Source: Candidatus Blastococcus massiliensis AP3 (GTDB lineage: Bacteria; Actinomycetota; Actinomycetes; Mycobacteriales; Geodermatophilaceae). From it: a DNA stretch of 64,000 bases. The translations under genes were made by a program, and so were the position numbers. Below are positions 8,641 through 52,006 of the stretch, one piece after another. Positions within the stretch are counted from its first letter, which is position 1, and each line of letters opens with the position of its first letter. Location of the stretch: positions 1,144,649 to 1,208,648 of the forward strand of contig NZ_HG931173.1 of NCBI RefSeq assembly GCF_000582785.1, in the 5' to 3' direction. The notes beneath the pieces were generated by a model that saw only the letters and a list, made by a program, of their open reading frames with translations, ran no database searches and was not told the origin of the DNA.

Positions 8641-9405
8641 ATGGACCTCTCGGTCCCCGCCGTCACCCTGGTCGCACTGCTGCTCGGCACCGCCCGGGCC
8701 GCCGGGTTCGTGCTGCTGGCCCCGCCGTTCAACTCGCGGACCATCCCCGGGCCGGTCAAGGGCGCCCTGGCGATGGCGCTGTCCCTGCTGCTGTCGACCC
8801 AGATCGCGCCCTCGCTGCCCGAGCCGACCGCCGGGTTCATCGTCGTCGCGGCGGTCACCGAGGTGGTGATCGGGGCGGCACTGGGCTTCGTCGTCCAGGT
8901 GCTGTTCACCGCCGTGCAGATGGCCGGTGACCTCATCGACCTGACCGGTGGCTTCGCGCTCCAGCCGGCCTACGACCCGCTGTCGATGACGCAGAACTCC
9001 TCGATCGGGCGGCTGCACTACCTGCTGGCCAGCACGCTGCTGTTCACCAGCGGCGGCCACCTGCTGATGGTCAAGGGGTTCGCGACCTCCTACGAGGGCC
9101 TGCCGGTCGGCGGCGACGTGCCCGTCGACCAGCTCGGCGCCGTGCTCATCCAGGCGGTGTCGATGATGTTCCTGGCGGCGCTGCAGATCGCCGGGCCGAT
9201 GGTCGCGGTGCTGCTGCTGGCCGACGTCGCCCTCGCCCTGCTCAGCCGCGCGGCACCCGCGCTCAACATCTTCGCCATCGGCTTCCCGGTGAAGATCATG
9301 CTGACGCTGATCATGCTGGGGCTGACGTTCCCGCTGCTCCCGCCCGCGCTGGACGCCCTGCTCGAGCACGGCGTCCAGGCCATGACCTCTCTCCGGAGCG
9401 GCTGA
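8641..9405 (+). CDS. fliR: Flagellar export gate protein FliR
   Basis: 254 residues. Several membrane segments fit FliR: an N-terminal helix with ARAAGFVLLAPPFNSRTIPG, then VTEVVIGAALGFVVQVLFTA, LLLADVALALLSRAAPALN and NIFAIGFPVKIMLTLIMLGL. FliR caps the FliPQR gate. The start ATG follows fliQ by 3 bases. The gene ends 16 bases before the flhB start; no stem-loop lies between them, so fliM to flhB look co-transcribed. Confidence 0.95.
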   Translation: MDLSVPAVTLVALLLGTARAAGFVLLAPPFNSRTIPGPVKGALAMALSLLLSTQIAPSLPEPTAGFIVVAAVTEVVIGAALGFVVQVLFTAVQMAGDLIDLTGGFALQPAYDPLSMTQNSSIGRLHYLLASTLLFTSGGHLLMVKGFATSYEGLPVGGDVPVDQLGAVLIQAVSMMFLAALQIAGPMVAVLLLADVALALLSRAAPALNIFAIGFPVKIMLTLIMLGLTFPLLPPALDALLEHGVQAMTSLRSG

Positions 9406-9421
9406 GCGATGGCGGTGACGG

Positions 9422-10588
9422 GTGGCTAAGGACGGTCCCGGTGGTGAGAAGACCGAGAAGCCCACTCCCCAGCGCCTGAAGAAGGCGCGCAAGGACGGGC
9501 AGGGGATCGCACGGACCGAGGAGCTGGGCACGTGGGCGGGCATCGCGGCGGCCAGTGCCCTGCTGCCGATGGTCGTCGGGAACGGGTTCGACGAGGCCCA
9601 GGAGCTGTTCCTGCAGATCCGCGCGGTCGCCGACAAGCCGGAGACCACGAAGATCACCGCCCTGCTCGGTCAGGCGCTGAGTGCTTTCATGTGGACGGTG
9701 CTGCCGCTGGCGCTGGGCCTCATGGTCGTCGGCGTCGTCTCGTCGGCGTCGCAGGGCGGGGTCGTCTTCTCCGGCAAGGCCATGAAGCCGAAGCTGAAGA
9801 AGTTCAACCCCTTCCCCGGCTTCAAGCGGATGTTCGGCACCCAGGGCCTGTGGGAGGCGACCAAGGCGCTGATCAAGACGACGGCTCTCGCGGTGGTCGT
9901 CATCACGACCAGCGACCGGGCGCAGACGCTCGTCTCCTCGGCGGGGGCGCTACCGCTCTCGGCGGTCATCGACACGTTCGTCGACTCGGCCATCCTGATG
10001 TTCCGCGTCGTCGCGGTCGCCGGCCTGGTCATCGCCGTCCTCGACTACCTCGTCGTGCGCAAGAAGATGTTGAAGCAGCTCAAGATGAGCCACTACGAGA
10101 TCAAGCAGGAGTACAAGCAGTCCGAGGGCGACCCGTTCATGAAGGCGCACCGCCGCGGGGTGCAGCTGTCCATGTCGCGCAACCGCATGATGGCCGAGGT
10201 CTCCGAGGCCGACGTCCTCCTGGTCAACCCGACGCACGTCGCCGTGGCGCTGAAGTACGAGGCCGCCAAGGGCGCGCCACGGGTCGTGGCCAAGGGCGCC
10301 GGCGAGGTGGCGGCCAAGCTCCGCGAGATCGCCGCGGAGGCGCGGGTGCCGATGGTGCAGGACATCCCGCTGGCCCGTGCCCTGCACGCCTCCTGCGAGC
10401 TCGGTCAGGAGGTCCCGCCGCAGCTGTTCACCGCCGTGGCCCGCGTCCTGGCCTTCGTCATGCACCTGGGTGCGCGCGGCGTGCGCGGCGGTCTGCACCG
10501 CCCCGGGTTCGAGGCACCCGACACGAGCGACCTGCCCAAGGCCGGCCGCCGCCGCACACCCGCCCCGGAGGCGGCCGGGATCAGGTGA
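9422..10588 (+). CDS. flhB: Flagellar export switch protein FlhB
   Basis: 388 residues from GTG 9422 (GEKTEKPTPQRLKKARKDGQ is the classic N-terminus). Four membrane segments occupy about residues 35-210, then the cytoplasmic switch domain. The autocleavage motif NPTH is intact at residues 269-272 (LLVNPTHVAVALKYE). Cleavage between N and P changes export specificity from rod/hook to filament when FliK signals. A basic tail of ~30 residues (GAGRRRTPAPEAAG type) extends past the usual end. A weak ribosome-binding site makes the exact start less certain, but the next start upstream in another frame meets a stop. flhA follows after a structured gap. Confidence 0.95.
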   Translation: MAKDGPGGEKTEKPTPQRLKKARKDGQGIARTEELGTWAGIAAASALLPMVVGNGFDEAQELFLQIRAVADKPETTKITALLGQALSAFMWTVLPLALGLMVVGVVSSASQGGVVFSGKAMKPKLKKFNPFPGFKRMFGTQGLWEATKALIKTTALAVVVITTSDRAQTLVSSAGALPLSAVIDTFVDSAILMFRVVAVAGLVIAVLDYLVVRKKMLKQLKMSHYEIKQEYKQSEGDPFMKAHRRGVQLSMSRNRMMAEVSEADVLLVNPTHVAVALKYEAAKGAPRVVAKGAGEVAAKLREIAAEARVPMVQDIPLARALHASCELGQEVPPQLFTAVARVLAFVMHLGARGVRGGLHRPGFEAPDTSDLPKAGRRRTPAPEAAGIR

Positions 10589-10655: not shown

Positions 10656-10746
10656 ACGGCGCGGGCCGGTACCGGAGGTGCCGCGGGCTGCCGATGTAGG
10701 GAGACGTGAGCACCCGTCCGTCGTCCGCATCCCCGGTCGTGGACCG

Positions 10747-12792
10747 GTGAAGGGCATGGGCAAGGCAGCCGTCCCCATCGGCGTGGTCGCCATCGTGCTC
10801 ATGCTGGTGGTGCCGGTGCCGGCTGCCTTCATGGACCTGTTCCTCGGGCTGAACCTCGCCGTCTCGCTGCTGATCCTGCTGGTCGCGATGCAGATCAAGA
10901 AGCCGCTGGACTTCGCGGTGTTCCCCTCGCTGCTGCTCATCGCGACGCTGTTCCGGCTGGCGCTCAACGTCTCGTCGACCCGGCTCGTGCTCACCGACGG
11001 CTACGCCGGCAAGGTGATCGAGGCATTCGGGCACATCGTCATCGCCGGCTCGCTCGTCGTCGGCCTGGTGATCTTCCTGATCCTCACCATCGTGCAGTTC
11101 GTGGTGATCACCAACGGTGCCGGCCGCGTCGCCGAGGTGGGCGCGCGCTTCACCCTCGACGCCATGCCCGGCAAGCAGATGGCGATCGACGCCGACCTGA
11201 ACGCCGGCCTGATCAACGAGGACCAGGCCCGCAAGCGCCGCCACGAGGTCACCGCCGAAGCGGACTTCTACGGCTCGATGGACGGCGCCTCGAAGTTCGT
11301 CAAGGGCGACGCGATCGCCGGCATCGTCATCACGCTGATCAACCTCATCGGTGGGTTCGCGATCGGCATGATGCAGCGCGGCATGCCGCCCGGCGAGGCG
11401 GTGTCGACGTACTCGCTGCTGAGCGTCGGGGACGGCCTGGTCTCGATGATCCCGGCCCTGCTGATGTCGACGGCGACCGGCATCATCGTCACCCGGTCGG
11501 CGACCGAGGGCGACATGGGCACCGACCTGATCGCCCAGCTCGGCCGGTTCAAGCAGCCGGTGCGGATCGCCGGCGGCGCCTCGCTCGCCCTGTGCCTGCT
11601 CCCGGGCCTGCCGAAGCTGCCGTTCCTGCTCGTGGGCTCGCTCTTCCTCTTCCTCGCCACCCGGCTCACCGACGAGCCGGAGGTCGACGAGGCGGCGGCG
11701 GCAGCGGCCGCCGCGGCTGCCGACGAGCCGGCGCCGGACTCCCCCGAGGCGATCGTCGAGAAGATGCGGGTGGACCCGCTGGAGCTCGAGGTCGCCTACG
11801 ACCTGGTGGAGCTCGTCGACACCTCCCGTGGCGGCGACCTGCTGGACCGGGTCAAGGCGCTGCGACGGAAGGTCGCGATGGAGACCGGCCTGGTCATCCC
11901 GCTGGTGCGCACCCGCGACAACCTCGACCTCCCCGGCTCGCAGTACGTCATCTGGCTCAACGGCGTGCCCGCTGCCAAGGGCATCTCCCCCGCCGGCACC
12001 GTGCTCGCCATCGGCGACAACCTGGACGGCCTGCCCGGCAAGCCCACCCGCGAGCCGGTGTTCGGGCTCGCCGCCAAGTGGGTGCCGGTCGAGCTCCAGC
12101 GCGCCGCGGAGATGGCCGGCGCCACCGTCGTCGACCGCTCCTCGGTGATCACCACGCACCTGGCCGAGGTCGTCCGGCAGAACGCCGCGGACCTCCTCGG
12201 CCGCGAGGACGTGCGCCTCCTGGTCGAGATGGTCCGCCGCTCGCACCCCGTCGTGGTCGAGGAACTGACCCCCACCCTGCTCACCCTGGGGGAGGTGCAA
12301 CGCGTGTTGCACGCGTTGCTCGAAGAGGGTGTGTCGATCCGGGACCTGGTCCGCATCTTCGAGGCACTCTCTGTGCGTGCGAAGCAGTCGACGGAGCTGG
12401 ACGGCCTCGTGGAGGCCGCACGCGCCGCACTCGGCTCGGCGATCAGTCACCCGTACGTGACGCCCGACGAGCGACTGCACGTCTTCACCCTCGAGCCCGG
12501 CTTCGAGCAGCGTCTCCTGGAGTCGGTGCGGCCGAGCGAGGGTGGGGCGGTCCTGGCCCTGGACGCCGGCGCCGTCGACGCGCTGGTCATGGGGTGCGGC
12601 GGTCTGCTCGAGGAGGCCGAACGCCAGGGCCTGTCACCGGTGCTCGTGTGCTCGCCCCAGGTCCGGGCGGCCCTGGCCCGGCTGATGCGTCAGATCCTTC
12701 CCCGGCTTCCGGTGATCTCCTACGCCGAGGTCTCCCGGACAGCGCAGATCGAGTCGCTGGGAGTTGTGAGCGGTGCCGTTGCGATCCGTTGA
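10747..12792 (+). CDS. flhA: Flagellar export apparatus protein FlhA
   Basis: 681 residues from GTG 10747 (MKGMGKAAVPIGVVAIVLML). ATG 10756 and GTG 10678 are alternatives, and none has a strong ribosome-binding site. About eight membrane segments fill the first ~320 residues, with the FHIPEP-family signature RVAEVGARFTLDAMPGKQMA and the charged cytoplasmic loop EDQARKRRHEVTAEADFYG. An acidic Ala-rich linker (about residues 315-335) leads to the cytoplasmic nonamer-forming domain (VRLLVEMVRRSHPVVVEEL, TLLTLGEVQRVLHALLEEGV). FlhA captures chaperone-substrate complexes and uses the proton motive force. It overlaps the FlhF-like gene by 20 bases. Confidence 0.95.
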   Translation: MKGMGKAAVPIGVVAIVLMLVVPVPAAFMDLFLGLNLAVSLLILLVAMQIKKPLDFAVFPSLLLIATLFRLALNVSSTRLVLTDGYAGKVIEAFGHIVIAGSLVVGLVIFLILTIVQFVVITNGAGRVAEVGARFTLDAMPGKQMAIDADLNAGLINEDQARKRRHEVTAEADFYGSMDGASKFVKGDAIAGIVITLINLIGGFAIGMMQRGMPPGEAVSTYSLLSVGDGLVSMIPALLMSTATGIIVTRSATEGDMGTDLIAQLGRFKQPVRIAGGASLALCLLPGLPKLPFLLVGSLFLFLATRLTDEPEVDEAAAAAAAAAADEPAPDSPEAIVEKMRVDPLELEVAYDLVELVDTSRGGDLLDRVKALRRKVAMETGLVIPLVRTRDNLDLPGSQYVIWLNGVPAAKGISPAGTVLAIGDNLDGLPGKPTREPVFGLAAKWVPVELQRAAEMAGATVVDRSSVITTHLAEVVRQNAADLLGREDVRLLVEMVRRSHPVVVEELTPTLLTLGEVQRVLHALLEEGVSIRDLVRIFEALSVRAKQSTELDGLVEAARAALGSAISHPYVTPDERLHVFTLEPGFEQRLLESVRPSEGGAVLALDAGAVDALVMGCGGLLEEAERQGLSPVLVCSPQVRAALARLMRQILPRLPVISYAEVSRTAQIESLGVVSGAVAIR

Positions 12793-15667
12793 GGCTGCCA
12801 CCCGCGACGATGCGATCGCGGCTGCACGCGAACAGTTCGGCCCGGCCGCCCGGGTGGTGGGCGTCCGACGCGTCCGCTCCGGTGGCGTGCTCGGGTTCTT
12901 CGCCACCGAGCGCTACGTCGCCGAGGTCGCGCCCGACCCGATCGGCGTCGCGGGCGTGCCGGTACCTGCTCCCGCCCGTCCGGCCGGCGCGCTGACGGAG
13001 GACCCCGACACCGGCTCGCTGGCCGCCTTCGGATCGCCGCTGGCCTCGGCCGCACCGGCCCGGGCGCGCACCGCACCGGCCCGCAACGGGGCCGCGGCGT
13101 GGGCCGAGGCCGGACGGTCGAGCGCGCCGGCCGTGCCCGCACCGCGCAGCGAGGCGCCCTCGTCGTTCTCCGCAGCTCTCGCGGCGTCCACGGACGCGTC
13201 CCGGCGGACGGCGACCCGACCGGCCGCCGTCGAGCCGGACGATGCCCGCCTGGACGAGCTCGCCGGGCTGCTGGGCGTCGCCGAGTCCGCCGCGGCCGAG
13301 CCCGCGGCCCCCTCCCGCACCCCCGTGGCGCGGGCCAGCTTCCCGCGGGCCACCCGCGAGAGCACCCCGCTCGCCCATCCGGCCGCCGACCACACCGGGG
13401 ACGTCGTCGACGACGCCGCGGCCACGGCGGCACCCTCGCCGTTCACCGCCGCGCTGGCGCGGATGGTGGCCGGCGACCGGGACGTCCAGCACGCGGTGCG
13501 GGAAGCGCTGGAGACGTCCGACGCGGCGCGCTCCGGCGAGGACGACGGCGAGGACGACTGCGGGGCCGAGCGCGTCCGGCCCGAGCACGAGGCAACGAGT
13601 CAGCCAGCGGTGTGGTCGCGTGCGACCCGCCAGAAGGAGGAAACGGTGGGAGACCAGGTCATCGCGCCGCCCTCCACGTCGATCGACGAGCGCACGGAAC
13701 TCGACTCCTGGACCGCCGAGCCGGCGTTCCTGGACGAACCGCCGTTCCTGGACGAGTCTGTGTTCCTGGACGAGATGCCGTTCCTGGACGAGTCGCCGCT
13801 CCTGGACGAGCCTGTGTTCCTGGACGAGATGCCGATCCCGGACGAGGTCGCGGTCGAGCCGGCCGAACCCGCCCGCGCCGGCGAGCCGGCCGTCGCCGTG
13901 GAGCAGGCGGCCGCGACCGAGCCGGCCGCGTCCCGCGAGGAGGCGATCGCCGAGGTGCTGCGGGCCGCCCTGGCCGAGGGGCACTCGGACGAGGCGCTCG
14001 CCGGGATCCTGCGCAAGGTCGTCGCCGGCGACTCCCCGCAGGCCGCGCTGGTCGAGCCCTCGGCCGCCGACGAGCCGGCTCCCGTGGTGGAGGAGCCGGC
14101 CGCCGAGACGCCGGCGCCCCCGGTGACGGCTACCGGGTCGGCCGCGGCGTCCGTCGCCGCACCCACTCCCGTCGAGCCGTCCGCCCGGCCGATGCCCGAG
14201 CTGCCCGCCCGTGCCGTGGTCGAGGCGCCCTTCGAGCTCTTCCCGTCGGTGGCGCCCGCTGCGCCCTCGTCGGCCGGGGTGTCGCTCTGGGGCGAGCCCT
14301 CCGCCGCGACGACCGCGGCCCTCAGCACGAGCGCCGACGTGACCCCGGCGTCCCAGGGCGCGCGCATCTGGGGCGAGGCGCAGCCCGAGGCGGAGCCCGA
14401 CCAGCCCGAGGTGCCGACCGAGGTCGAGATCGAGGTCGAGATCGAGGCCGAGATCGACGCCGAGATCGAGGCCGGGGTCCAGGCCGAGGTCGAGGCCGAG
14501 GTCTCCGTCGCCGAAGCCACCGAGGAGGCCGCCGCCCTCGACGTCGAGCCGGCGCCGCTGCTCGCGCGGACCGCCAGTGACCCGGCCCCCGTCCAGACGC
14601 CGCGACCGTCGATGTCGATGGACGCCACGACGGTCATGCCGCCGCTGTCCCTGCTGCCCGGGGCGCCGTCCCGGGGCCGCGGGCTGCCCCCGGTTCCGCC
14701 GCGCACCTCCCGCCCGCCCGTCCCCCCGCCGTCCTCCGCGACCCGTACGCCGGCCGCACCGCCGGCCGACGGCGCCGACGTCCCCTCCCCCGCGCGCCCC
14801 GCACCGGAGCTGCTGGCCACGGTGACCCGGCTGCCCGTCGCCCCGCTGATGGCCACGCCGGAGACGCCGGACATGCCCGAGCTCGCCGATCTGGCCGAGC
14901 TGATCGAGGACGACGCCACCAGCCTCTTCGGCTCGCCGGAGCCGCCCGCCGTCCCGGCCCGGCCGGCGCGTGTGCGCATCGCTCCGCCGAGCACGCCGGA
15001 GGAGGTGGTGTCCCGGCTCGCCGCCCTCGGGGTGCCGGCCGACCTGCTCGACTCCGGGTTCACGGCCGACGTCAGCACCGGCGGCACCTACTCCGCGCTC
15101 ACCCGGACGCTCGGTGACCGGCTGCCGGAGGCACCGGAGCTCCCGACCGGCGCCGGCGACGTCCTCTTCGTGGTGGGGCCCGGCGTCGAGACCCTGCGGG
15201 CGGCGCGGTCCCTGGCCGCGACCCTGCGGCTCGACCCGGACCGCGTGCAGTGGGCGACCCGCGGCGACCTGGTGGGCCTCGCGCCGGAGTCCAGCCGGAT
15301 GAGCACCATCGACACGGCGCTGAGCCGTCGCCAGGACGCGTCGGCCTCCGGGACCGTGACGATCGTGGCCGTGGACGCGCCGCTGCGCACCGACGCCTAC
15401 TGGATGTCGCAGATGCTGGCGATCTGGTCGCCGGTGGCCGTCTGGGCCGTCGTGGAGGCCACCCGCAAGCCCGAGGACATCGAGCACTGGGTCGACGGCC
15501 TGGCCCGTGTCGACGCGCTGATCGTGCAGGACACCGACCTGTCGGCCGACCCGGCCGCTGTGCTCTCCCGCCTCACCGCGCCGGTCGCCGTCGTCGACGG
15601 CGTCCGGGCCACTCCCCACCGCTGGGCCTCGGTCCTCTGCGAGCGGCTGGAGACCGCACCGGCATGA
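12773..15667 (+). CDS. FlhF-like protein with repeat-rich linker and degenerate SRP-type GTPase domain
   Basis: 964 residues, GTG 12773 inside the flhA 3' end with gggag about 8 bases upstream. The N-terminus (ATRDDAIAAAREQFGPAARV, then GGVLGFFATERYVAEV) matches the FlhF B-domain pattern. A ~750-residue Ala/Pro/Glu-rich disordered linker contains seven hexapeptide repeats of FLDExx type (residues 319-360) and an acidic E-V/E-I repeat (550-577). The last ~200 residues keep the SRP-GTPase layout (GDVLFVVGPGVETLRAARSL), but the P-loop is GPGVET at 802-807, without the Lys and Thr of GxxGxGKT. The TKxD specificity motif is replaced by QDTDLSAD. FlhF normally positions the flagellum. Position after flhA supports an FlhF relationship; GTP hydrolysis is unlikely. 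Confidence 0.7.
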   Translation: MPLRSVEAATRDDAIAAAREQFGPAARVVGVRRVRSGGVLGFFATERYVAEVAPDPIGVAGVPVPAPARPAGALTEDPDTGSLAAFGSPLASAAPARARTAPARNGAAAWAEAGRSSAPAVPAPRSEAPSSFSAALAASTDASRRTATRPAAVEPDDARLDELAGLLGVAESAAAEPAAPSRTPVARASFPRATRESTPLAHPAADHTGDVVDDAAATAAPSPFTAALARMVAGDRDVQHAVREALETSDAARSGEDDGEDDCGAERVRPEHEATSQPAVWSRATRQKEETVGDQVIAPPSTSIDERTELDSWTAEPAFLDEPPFLDESVFLDEMPFLDESPLLDEPVFLDEMPIPDEVAVEPAEPARAGEPAVAVEQAAATEPAASREEAIAEVLRAALAEGHSDEALAGILRKVVAGDSPQAALVEPSAADEPAPVVEEPAAETPAPPVTATGSAAASVAAPTPVEPSARPMPELPARAVVEAPFELFPSVAPAAPSSAGVSLWGEPSAATTAALSTSADVTPASQGARIWGEAQPEAEPDQPEVPTEVEIEVEIEAEIDAEIEAGVQAEVEAEVSVAEATEEAAALDVEPAPLLARTASDPAPVQTPRPSMSMDATTVMPPLSLLPGAPSRGRGLPPVPPRTSRPPVPPPSSATRTPAAPPADGADVPSPARPAPELLATVTRLPVAPLMATPETPDMPELADLAELIEDDATSLFGSPEPPAVPARPARVRIAPPSTPEEVVSRLAALGVPADLLDSGFTADVSTGGTYSALTRTLGDRLPEAPELPTGAGDVLFVVGPGVETLRAARSLAATLRLDPDRVQWATRGDLVGLAPESSRMSTIDTALSRRQDASASGTVTIVAVDAPLRTDAYWMSQMLAIWSPVAVWAVVEATRKPEDIEHWVDGLARVDALIVQDTDLSADPAAVLSRLTAPVAVVDGVRATPHRWASVLCERLETAPA
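13727..13852 (+). repeat. Seven tandem 18-base repeats encoding FLDExx hexapeptides
   Basis: In-frame units within the FlhF-like gene encode FLDEPP, FLDESV, FLDEMP, FLDESP, LLDEPV, FLDEMP and IPDEVA. The DNA unit is close to ttcctggacgag plus six variable bases. Tandem in-frame repeats suggest slippage expansion and could vary in number between strains. Confidence 0.85.
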
Positions 15668-15927
15668 GCCCGCTGCGCTGGGACGTGCTGCTGGTCGGCT
15701 TCGTGCTGGCTCTGCCGGTGCTCGCACTCGGCCTGCGCGGCGACTTCACCGCCGAGGAAGTGACCCTCCGCCTGCCCTGGTGCCTCGCGGCGGGGTGGGC
15801 CGTGGTGGCGATGCTGAGGTTCGCGACCACCCCGCGGACGCCGGCCCGCGCCGCTGCCACCCGGGCACACCGCGACGACGTCGCTCACGAGTCCGCCACG
15901 GACGACGCCGAGTCGTCCGCCCCGTAA
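15664..15927 (+). CDS. Small membrane protein at the end of the flagellar operon
   Basis: 87 residues from ATG 15664, which overlaps the stop of the FlhF-like gene (ATGA). There are two predicted membrane segments, DVLLVGFVLALPVLALGLRG and PWCLAAGWAVVAMLRFA, and a polar His/Asp/Ala-rich cytoplasmic tail. I do not recognise a family. Translational coupling to the FlhF-like gene suggests a joint role, perhaps membrane recruitment, but this is inference. It is followed by a 44-base palindrome. Confidence 0.65.
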   Translation: MSPLRWDVLLVGFVLALPVLALGLRGDFTAEEVTLRLPWCLAAGWAVVAMLRFATTPRTPARAAATRAHRDDVAHESATDDAESSAP

Positions 15928-50729: not shown

Positions 50730-52006
50730 GCGGACCCCGGTCGGTCCGGCCCGACCGGCTGCTCGACCGGCTGCTCGACCGGCTGCTCGACCGGCATGGC
50801 CCCAGGCACACGGGGGCGCCCCGCTGCGTCCACCGCCGTTGCCTCGTCCCGCAGGCGCGCCCGCGAGCCACCCTCCGCCAGCAGCGACACGGTCATGAAG
50901 AGCAGGAACTCCGGGGTCGCCTCCACCAGTCCGCTCTCCAGGAGGCTGCGGCCGAGGAGGAAGGTCAGCACGCCGAGGAACAGGATCCGGTGCGGTCGAG
51001 GGGCGCGAACGGAGCCCACCACGGCCCACACGGCCCACACGACGGTCACGAGCAGTCCGAGGAGCCCGGTCTGCACCAGGGCGGACACCCAGCTGCTGTC
51101 GAGCAGCTGCTCGTCCCACCACTGCCCGTCGACCGGGATGTACTTGACCGACAGCCCGCCGCCGAACGCCCACTGCCACCACGACTCCGCCCACGACTGG
51201 GCGGCGCTCCAGGCCACGAAGCGCGACTCCAGCGTGCTGGTCCCCGTTCCGTCGCGCGTGACGAAGCCGGCGACCGCCCCCGTGACCACCACGGCCACGC
51301 AACCGAGGGCTGCCGTGACCAGGGCCCCGACCACGAGGCCGACCCGGGGCCGGCGCATGTGCAGCACGACGACCACGACCGCGAGCACGAGCATGAACAA
51401 GCCGGTCCTGGATCCGGTCAGCCACACCAGCGCGAGGAACCCGCCGCCCAGCAGCGCATTGCGCCACCGGGCCTCGCCCAGCGCCGTGCGCCACGTCGCC
51501 CAGAGGACGACGACGCCGGCGAGGAGGGCCAGGCCGTTCGGGTGGAGGGGCGGGATGCCGCCGAAGAAGCGTCCGTCGAGCAGGCTGGGCAGTCCGGTGG
51601 CGGCAGCCACCGCCGCGACCACACCGCACGAGCCGACGATCGCCCGGAGCACCCGGAACGCGGGAGCTGCCCGGAGCAGCAGGACGACCGTGGCGACGAG
51701 GATGGTGGTCCGCGCCGCGATCACCGCGCTGGGGACCAGGGTCCCGTGACCGAGCGCGCCGAGGAGCGACGCGGCGAGCATGACCCCGAAGAACCACAGG
51801 GAGCCGGTACCGACCCGGCGCCGGCCCGCACCCGCGGCCTGCGCCGCCGCGAACGCGAGCGCCAGGGCCAGGACGCCGCACACGGCTTTGCCGACGACCA
51901 CCGGGTCCAGCGAACCGGAGAAGACGTCTCCCCGCCGCCAGACCACCGTGCTGGCGACCATCAGGAGACAGGCGACGCCCACCCGGGGGGAGGCAGTGGT
52001 GCTCAT
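50726..52006 (-). CDS. O-antigen ligase/polymerase-like membrane protein (Wzy candidate)
   Basis: 426 residues from ATG 52006, with aggaggcgtc directly upstream. About eleven membrane segments surround a large external loop (WSAAQSWAESWWQWAFGGGL). Conserved-looking features are GGIPPLHPNGLALLAGVVVL and LALVWLTGSRTGLFMLVLAV, typical of the O-antigen ligase/Wzy superfamily (NG-LA, SR-G). The C-terminus carries a tandem PVEQ repeat. It likely polymerises or ligates repeat units on the outer face. Confidence 0.8.
   Translation of the reverse strand: MSTTASPRVGVACLLMVASTVVWRRGDVFSGSLDPVVVGKAVCGVLALALAFAAAQAAGAGRRRVGTGSLWFFGVMLAASLLGALGHGTLVPSAVIAARTTILVATVVLLLRAAPAFRVLRAIVGSCGVVAAVAAATGLPSLLDGRFFGGIPPLHPNGLALLAGVVVLWATWRTALGEARWRNALLGGGFLALVWLTGSRTGLFMLVLAVVVVVLHMRRPRVGLVVGALVTAALGCVAVVVTGAVAGFVTRDGTGTSTLESRFVAWSAAQSWAESWWQWAFGGGLSVKYIPVDGQWWDEQLLDSSWVSALVQTGLLGLLVTVVWAVWAVVGSVRAPRPHRILFLGVLTFLLGRSLLESGLVEATPEFLLFMTVSLLAEGGSRARLRDEATAVDAAGRPRVPGAMPVEQPVEQPVEQPVGPDRPGSA
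50759..50794 (-). repeat. Three 12-base repeats encoding PVEQ
   Basis: The + strand reads ctgctcgaccgg three times in exact tandem at the 3' end of the Wzy-like gene, giving PVEQPVEQPVEQ. Such identical units are prone to slippage. Confidence 0.85.

Follow-up and report, generated by a model that had tools for sequence, protein, structure and literature searches.

We propose that flhF', an flhF-like gene of Candidatus Blastococcus massiliensis AP3, is the flhF of its lineage and probably encodes a nucleotide-independent pseudo-GTPase, i.e., a tether that would hold FliG at a membrane site without requiring GTP. The gene was analysed in a stretch of 64,000 nucleotides, hereafter the window (contig NZ_HG931173.1, forward-strand positions 1,144,649-1,208,648, assembly GCF_000582785.1), in which it adjoins flhA, as expected of an FlhF gene. 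Its product is tripartite, with an N-terminal part (residues 1-55), a linker of ~680 residues, and a C-terminal domain (C-domain, residues 736-964). An earlier note, made from the letters of the window alone, had described an FlhF-like protein in which a scaffold may have replaced the GTPase, and its open reading frame (ORF), GPGVET, and QDTDLSAD stretches were all recovered where it had put them (Table 1). Our results support an FlhF descendant with a degenerate signal recognition particle (SRP) GTPase domain; that a scaffold replaced the GTPase is what we infer. It is unsettled what FlhF gains from GTP binding and from FlhG, the switch of its GTPase, and a lineage keeping the N-terminal domain and the NG fold without the nucleotide site and FlhG (Blastococcus, Geodermatophilus, Actinoplanes, Planomonospora) would constitute a natural experiment.

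The flhF' protein shares with the FlhF of B. subtilis, Shewanella, Vibrio, and Pseudomonas the N-terminal FliG-interaction domain (FID), the linker, the NG fold, and a TTKxxD-like ATRKxxD motif. On the contrary, it is devoid of the P-loop Lys/Thr, DTAGR, and TKLD, its linker is far longer in Geodermatophilaceae, and no FlhG partner was found. Two other kinds of FlhF exist in Actinomycetota. The motif-complete FlhFs (13 loci, e.g., L197 and L199) occupy the orthologous slot after flhA, but they keep G1, G3, and G4, measure 375-457 amino acids (aa), and are accompanied by an FlhG with a DQAxxLR stretch. The P-loop-bearing FlhFs without FlhG (10 loci, e.g., L204, L208, L212, and L231) are followed in the eight scanned, as is flhF', by a gene for a two-helix membrane protein, but they keep GxxGxGK[ST], with G3 and G4 decayed in part of them.

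The C-domain, judged by alignments and by its model, is FlhF by descent and has lost the G1, G3, and G4 motifs. Indeed, the Lys and Ser/Thr of the P-loop GxxGxGKT are absent, and neither DTAGR (G3) nor TKxD (G4) is found, the TKxD lysine being absent too. The alignment often retains the P-loop Gly as well as an Asp close to G3, and Lys171, Gly67, Gly74, Pro199, and Pro209 (numbering of A1, the C-domain profile) are invariant. The AlphaFold2 model of the C-domain (26 sequences) adopts the NG fold (predicted local distance difference test, pLDDT, 94.6; predicted template modelling score, pTM, 0.90), and all of the best 50 PDB matches listed by Foldseek are SRP GTPases, FlhF 8r9r being at rank 36. 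Hence, the SRP-GTPase-like end without catalytic motifs announced by the earlier note is real as a predicted fold, recovered by the very structure comparison that the note had proposed. With hhalign, the best profile match of the C-domain was to the P-loop-bearing FlhF-like proteins of the phylum (E 1e-7, probability 94); with motif-complete FlhF, ATRKPED is paired with TTKxxD, and the QDTD stretch with TKLDET.

The assignment of the C-domain rests on profile-profile and fold comparison, because sequence-only searches named no GTPase family. No Pfam model, PF00448 included, matched the whole protein at the gathering score, and the PF00448 search suggested in the earlier note did not recover the C-domain either. 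Pfam returned only scattered unrelated matches for 26 C-domains (best E 0.0036), phmmer with the C-domain in PDB gave two IST1 matches (E 0.4) and no GTPase family, and the A1 profile reached SRP54 at E 0.16-0.28 (ranks 3-8), below two unrelated chains, no match of this profile being significant. In the genome itself PF00448 has three matches, all outside the window, with two separate strong genes which we take to be Ffh and FtsY. Ffh and FtsY share the NG fold with the C-domain, but a C-domain hidden Markov model (HMM) does not pick them (0/47 Ffh/FtsY-type ORFs at E < 1e-3, best E 0.004, one of the 47, at L185, being an flhF), while it matches 12/13 motif-complete FlhFs. Three of the four ParA controls of this comparison turned out to be adjoining flhF ORFs, and only its contrast of FlhF with SRP ORFs is used here. 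This preference for FlhF, together with the operon slot and with profile comparisons and a fold search that point to FlhF/SRP GTPases, already contradicts the idea that an unrelated Rossmann-like protein took the slot after flhA. The zero Pfam matches, the PDB profile search without significant match, and the NCBIfam FlhF cut-off (TIGR03499), reached in 0/246 genomes of the host's class and in 13/44 flhA-bearing genomes elsewhere in the phylum, speak for such a replacement, which we nevertheless consider very improbable.

The N-terminal part, as far as profiles can tell, is FlhF's own N-terminal domain, and FliG binding is predicted for it by homology. The NCBIfam FlhF models match the whole flhF' protein weakly (E 0.046 and 0.071; 13.1 bits for a TIGR03499 cut-off of 174.15 bits), the N-domain of the window alone reaches E 4.5e-4, and the two models recognise 28/30 and 27/30 relatives' N-domains with a limit of E 0.1. 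Compared as profiles, the N-domains of flhF' and those of motif-complete actinobacterial FlhF match at E 3e-13; the FlhF-like N-terminus claimed earlier is thus real. In PDB, the top of the nine sequences listed for the N-domain profile is FlhF 9en1 (E 0.033, alone not significant), a record of the FliG-interacting domain of SpFlhF. The N-domain model, of moderate confidence (pLDDT 79.6), is beta-alpha-beta-beta, i.e., the three strands and one helix that PMC11236974 gives for the crystal structure. Foldseek matches of this model carry no significant E-value; 9en1 FID chains appear among them at ranks 10, 20, 21, 22, and 40, with target template modelling (TM) scores of 0.60-0.67.

The loss of the P-loop extends over a whole clade. 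We built a FlhA tree (117 rows, FastTree, local support, midpoint root) and read the DNA after flhA at each locus, eleven rows on truncated contigs being excluded from motif counts. A single branch with support 100 splits 26 rows from 91. The P-loop is present in 23/23 complete FlhFs of the 26-row side (13 with FlhG and 10 without), two further rows having no FlhF-like ORF and one being truncated. The 91-row side comprises 68 P-loop-less proteins, four proteins with the FID but no recognised C-domain (FID-only), nine rows without FlhF-like ORF beside flhA, and ten truncated rows. The FID HMM matches 68/68 P-loop-less and 4/4 FID-only proteins, and the C-domain HMM 56/68 P-loop-less proteins, both HMMs having been trained on part of them. 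The Walker A pattern occurs in 0/72 complete FlhF-like proteins of this side. It also occurs in none of 80 named loci, retained of 98 confirmed and chosen by C-domain presence, so that all carry the C-domain by construction; they include Blastococcus, Geodermatophilus, Actinoplanes and relatives, Planomonospora, Planobispora, Actinosynnema, Motilibacter, and others, and the FID was found in all 69 with enough upstream DNA. Since no P-loop was found on the whole 91-row side, its loss is neither Geodermatophilaceae-specific nor strain-specific: the loss that the earlier note saw in this lineage is real, without being a peculiarity of the family, and the survey of flhA-adjacent genes that it suggested revealed no close relative with an intact P-loop. 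These zero counts also make it scarcely credible that an intact P-loop was lost to faulty sequencing or assembly, in favour of which nothing was found.

The C-domain was detected in 43/150 genomes of the host's order and flhA in 47/150. The host's class has flhA in 31/246 genomes, 19 of them with the C-domain, and one extra genome without flhA gives a weak C-domain match; among the 12 flhA genomes without C-domain, nine show no FlhF-like ORF beside flhA, an FID-only gene was found in two, and the locus of the last lies on a truncated contig. The phylum sample has flhA in 47/246 genomes and an A1 match in 8/246, three of the eight being weak. A 2023 phylogenomic study (PMC10746217) assigns FlgFG loss to the ancestor shared by Acidimicrobiia, Nitriliruptoria, and Actinomycetia, and states that the non-FlgFG classes "also lack" FlhF; its homologues were sought with BLASTP and PSI-BLAST (1e-5) and then checked by domains and HHpred. 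These classes are probably what our 91-row side represents, and our reading would correct the claim, as worded there, of an absence of FlhF from the later flagellated classes: a gene scored as lost can in fact persist as a pseudo-GTPase that family models do not see. We found no description of a P-loop-less actinobacterial FlhF in the open-licence literature, mostly judged from titles and abstract openings, and the main text of a 2025 FlhF/FlhG review (PMC12826062) has no word beginning with "actinobacter".

Nine loci of Actinomycetes (L127, L129, and L131-L135, of family f41, with L128 and L130) have flhA without FlhF-like ORF beside it; no FID match was obtained within the fetched 12 kb (the remaining genome not being searched for FID), and this group may have lost FlhF completely. 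Besides, a flhF' locus of actinobacterial type lies on the record SPQJ01000039.1 (L321), whose species label, "UNVERIFIED_ORG: Bacillus sp. AZ43", is therefore probably wrong.

The partner of the FlhF GTPase was not found either. A MinD-type gene, its P-loop within 510 bases, is present in 13/13 motif-complete loci, and in all 13 the FlhG has the DQAxxLR activator, found only beside motif-complete FlhFs. No FlhG lies downstream of flhF' in the window, in agreement with the earlier note. A search of 18 whole genomes gave strong FlhG matches only in three controls (E 1e-78 or better); in the other 15, Candidatus Blastococcus massiliensis AP3 included, the best FlhG-query E-values are 3e-8 to 4e-12, and AP3 has only generic ParA-like genes, DQAxxLR being absent from those checked. 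We read 27 further matching loci, and none of the 24 with a readable ParA motif has a DQAxxLR-like stretch before it; at the 10 P-loop-bearing FlhG-less loci, the up to 5 kb of DNA read contain no gene of ParA type. This bears on the possibility that the C-domain remains a switch, with a rebuilt pocket for a nucleotide or some other small ligand. Nucleotide-binding pseudo-GTPases exist, the predicted fold is intact, and the Gly and Asp mentioned above are often retained; the loss of the P-loop Lys and Ser/Thr and of the TKxD lysine, with a GTPase-activating partner that the genome search did not find, makes such a pocket quite improbable in our opinion.

The linker is the least conserved part of the family (0.39, vs 0.76 for the FID, the best conserved, and 0.71 for the C-domain). 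It measures about 680 aa and not ~750, as first estimated. The two kinds of repeats reported in it do exist, but neither the FLDE array nor a long EVEI run is found in 16 complete Geodermatophilaceae relatives, four of which have single FLDE-like tetrads; the repeats are therefore strain-level expansions and not a common function. Neither is a long repeat-rich linker a common novelty, since P-loop-less FlhF-like proteins range from 311 to 1659 aa. The linker contains a short motif, PSPFxAALxRMV-like in Geodermatophilaceae (17/17), and an HMM of this island finds nothing in other families (0/76) that exceeds the threshold set by shuffling. In other families, an STExxxFAxVLxxL-like motif was seen in 18/55 proteins, an exploratory count, the pattern having been picked after examples were seen. 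Used as seeds of a matrix, these 18 matches retrieve 9/35 further P-loop-less proteins (p < 0.01 by shuffling), 0/8 P-loop-bearing FlhG-less and 0/13 motif-complete FlhFs, and the matrix misses the Geodermatophilaceae motif (0/17 at p < 0.01). A relaxed pattern also matches one P-loop-bearing protein, L215 (1/8).

In the tether that we favour, the FID would hold FliG and, via FliG, also FliF, as in Shewanella, where the N-terminal domain of FlhF binds FliG; the tether model is taken from PMC11236974 and PMC12713375. The long flexible linker, with its one conserved short motif, would provide reach. The pseudo-NG domain would dock on a partner in the membrane, which, from the position and overlap of the next gene, may be the two-helix protein; FipA/HubP, presented in PMC11620751 and PMC11236974 as membrane partners positioning FlhF in gamma-proteobacteria, are analogues of this protein by position only. 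As the nucleotide motifs and FlhG are lost, a GTP cycle is presumably absent. A tether with neither a GTP cycle nor FlhG would stay constant, leaving dosage or the membrane partner, rather than GTP hydrolysis, to decide the number or place of flagella. We extend this only tentatively, and with less than even confidence, to the ancestor from which the later flagellated classes of actinobacteria descend, in which FlhF may have become a nucleotide-free and FlhG-free scaffold. Its FID would take FliG, its disordered linker would give reach and carry short docking motifs fixed anew (PSPFxAALxRMV in Geodermatophilaceae, STExxxFAxVLxxL-like ones in many other lineages), and its pseudo-NG domain would bind the two-helix protein. 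If this is true, a constant tether places flagella, and the scaffold role of FlhF has been separated from its GTP clock.

flhF' is still under selection. We computed the ratio of non-synonymous to synonymous substitutions (dN/dS, Nei-Gojobori) in 12 pairs, the C-domain being taken as the last 228 residues (which in L064/L065 includes a C-terminal extension). It is 0.03-0.70 for the C-domain, lower than for the linker in all 12 pairs, and 0-0.30 for the FID in 11/12 pairs (0.69 in L144/L146); both domains are thus under tighter constraint than the linker in nearly every pair.

Several observations weigh against the tether. Four loci have the FID but no recognised C-domain, and in nine rows of the clade flhA stands without an FlhF-like ORF next to it, so that the C-domain, and sometimes the whole protein, is dispensable in some flhA lineages. 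The C-domain is unrecognised in 12/68 P-loop-less proteins, 11 of which are every P-loop-less protein of a 14-row sister clade. Its match to motif-complete FlhF is poorer (hhalign E 7e-4, probability 26), and its HMM misses the P-loop-bearing FlhG-less intermediates (0/8). The N-domain HMM matches 6/13 motif-complete FlhFs at the stricter setting and 12/13 at the looser one. The pair L144/L146 has a dN/dS near 0.7 for all parts, and in the three pairs that set flhF' of the window against its nearest relatives the C-domain stands at 0.31-0.46, a mild constraint. Moreover, FliG binding is carried over from Shewanella, and the tether itself is predicted from sequence and model. The missing C-domains, with an FID that is recognised in every P-loop-less protein and is the best conserved part, would fit a protein of which only the FID is functional, the C-domain being a decaying relic or a passive fold being lost. 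We think this unlikely, given a C-domain tighter than the linker in every pair, with dN/dS down to 0.03, its invariant residues kept, and its model of very high confidence.

The two-helix protein is an old neighbour. An HMM trained on part of the loci detects it downstream in 63/68 P-loop-less loci, in 8/8 P-loop-bearing FlhG-less loci scanned, and in 7/13 motif-complete loci; it is adjacent to flhF' in 17/17 Geodermatophilaceae loci. Of the motif-complete loci, the eight inspected by hydropathy all have it behind flhG. This presence behind flhG rules it out as a replacement of FlhG; it is instead ancestral, and FlhG dropped out. Thus, the coupling to a small membrane protein noted earlier holds as a gene overlap, with an old operon neighbour and not a new partner. 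At L201, flhA is directly followed by an 85-aa putative membrane hairpin; no FID was found in the 8 kb read, and the membrane protein may have outlasted FlhF there. Pfam assigns the gene between flhG and the two-helix gene to PilZ at both loci tested, and an HMM of our own does so at 13/13. A PilZ-like gene also lies between flhF' and the two-helix gene, or directly after flhF', at L052, L066, L147, L200, and others; downstream of flhF' it was not detected in any of the 17 Geodermatophilaceae loci, a pattern hinting at a moved or lost cyclic di-GMP input in this family.

In the window, flgD, flgE, motA, motB, fliL, fliM, a fliN-like gene, fliO, fliP, fliR, flhB, and flhA lie upstream of flhF', whose 5' end overlaps the 3' end of flhA by 20 nt.

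Table 1. Features of the flhF' locus, in positions of the window
Feature	Position	Strand	Remarks
flhF-like gene (flhF')	12773..15667	+	964 aa; GTG start at 12773; same slot after flhA in relatives
N-terminal FlhF domain (FID), residues 1-55, RSGGVLGFF core	12773..12937	+	profile comparison, NCBIfam, model
Acidic Ala/Pro-rich linker, residues ~56-735	12938..14977	+	36% A+P, net charge -70
Conserved short linker motif PSPFTAALARMV, residues 221-232	13433..13468	+	kept in 17/17 complete family members
FLDE-type tandem repeat, 18/54-base period	13717..13851	+	DNA tandem repeat
EVEI-type tandem repeat, 12/24-base period	14407..14503	+	DNA tandem repeat
Pseudo-NG domain, residues 736-964, predicted SRP-GTPase fold without nucleotide motifs	14978..15664	+	model, fold search, profiles
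GPGVET, residues 802-807, at P-loop (G1) position	15176..15193	+	alignments, hhalign
VAVDAP, residues 865-870, at G3 (DTAGR) position	15365..15382	+	alignment, hhalign
EATRKPED, residues 895-902, counterpart of FlhF TTKxxD	15455..15478	+	Lys invariant in 26 aligned sequences
QDTDLSAD, residues 919-926, at G4 (TKLD) position	15527..15550	+	hhalign
fliR	8641..9405	+	Pfam and NCBIfam matches
flhB	9422..10588	+	PF01312; NCBIfam
flhA	10678..12792	+	Pfam and NCBIfam matches
87-aa two-helix membrane protein	15664..15927	+	hydropathy; start overlaps flhF' stop (ATGA)

Pfam gave zero matches for the 87-aa protein, and an Rfam scan of the window returned zero RNA families. The AT skew of the window is highest, among 1-kb bins, at positions 51001-52000 (0.411).
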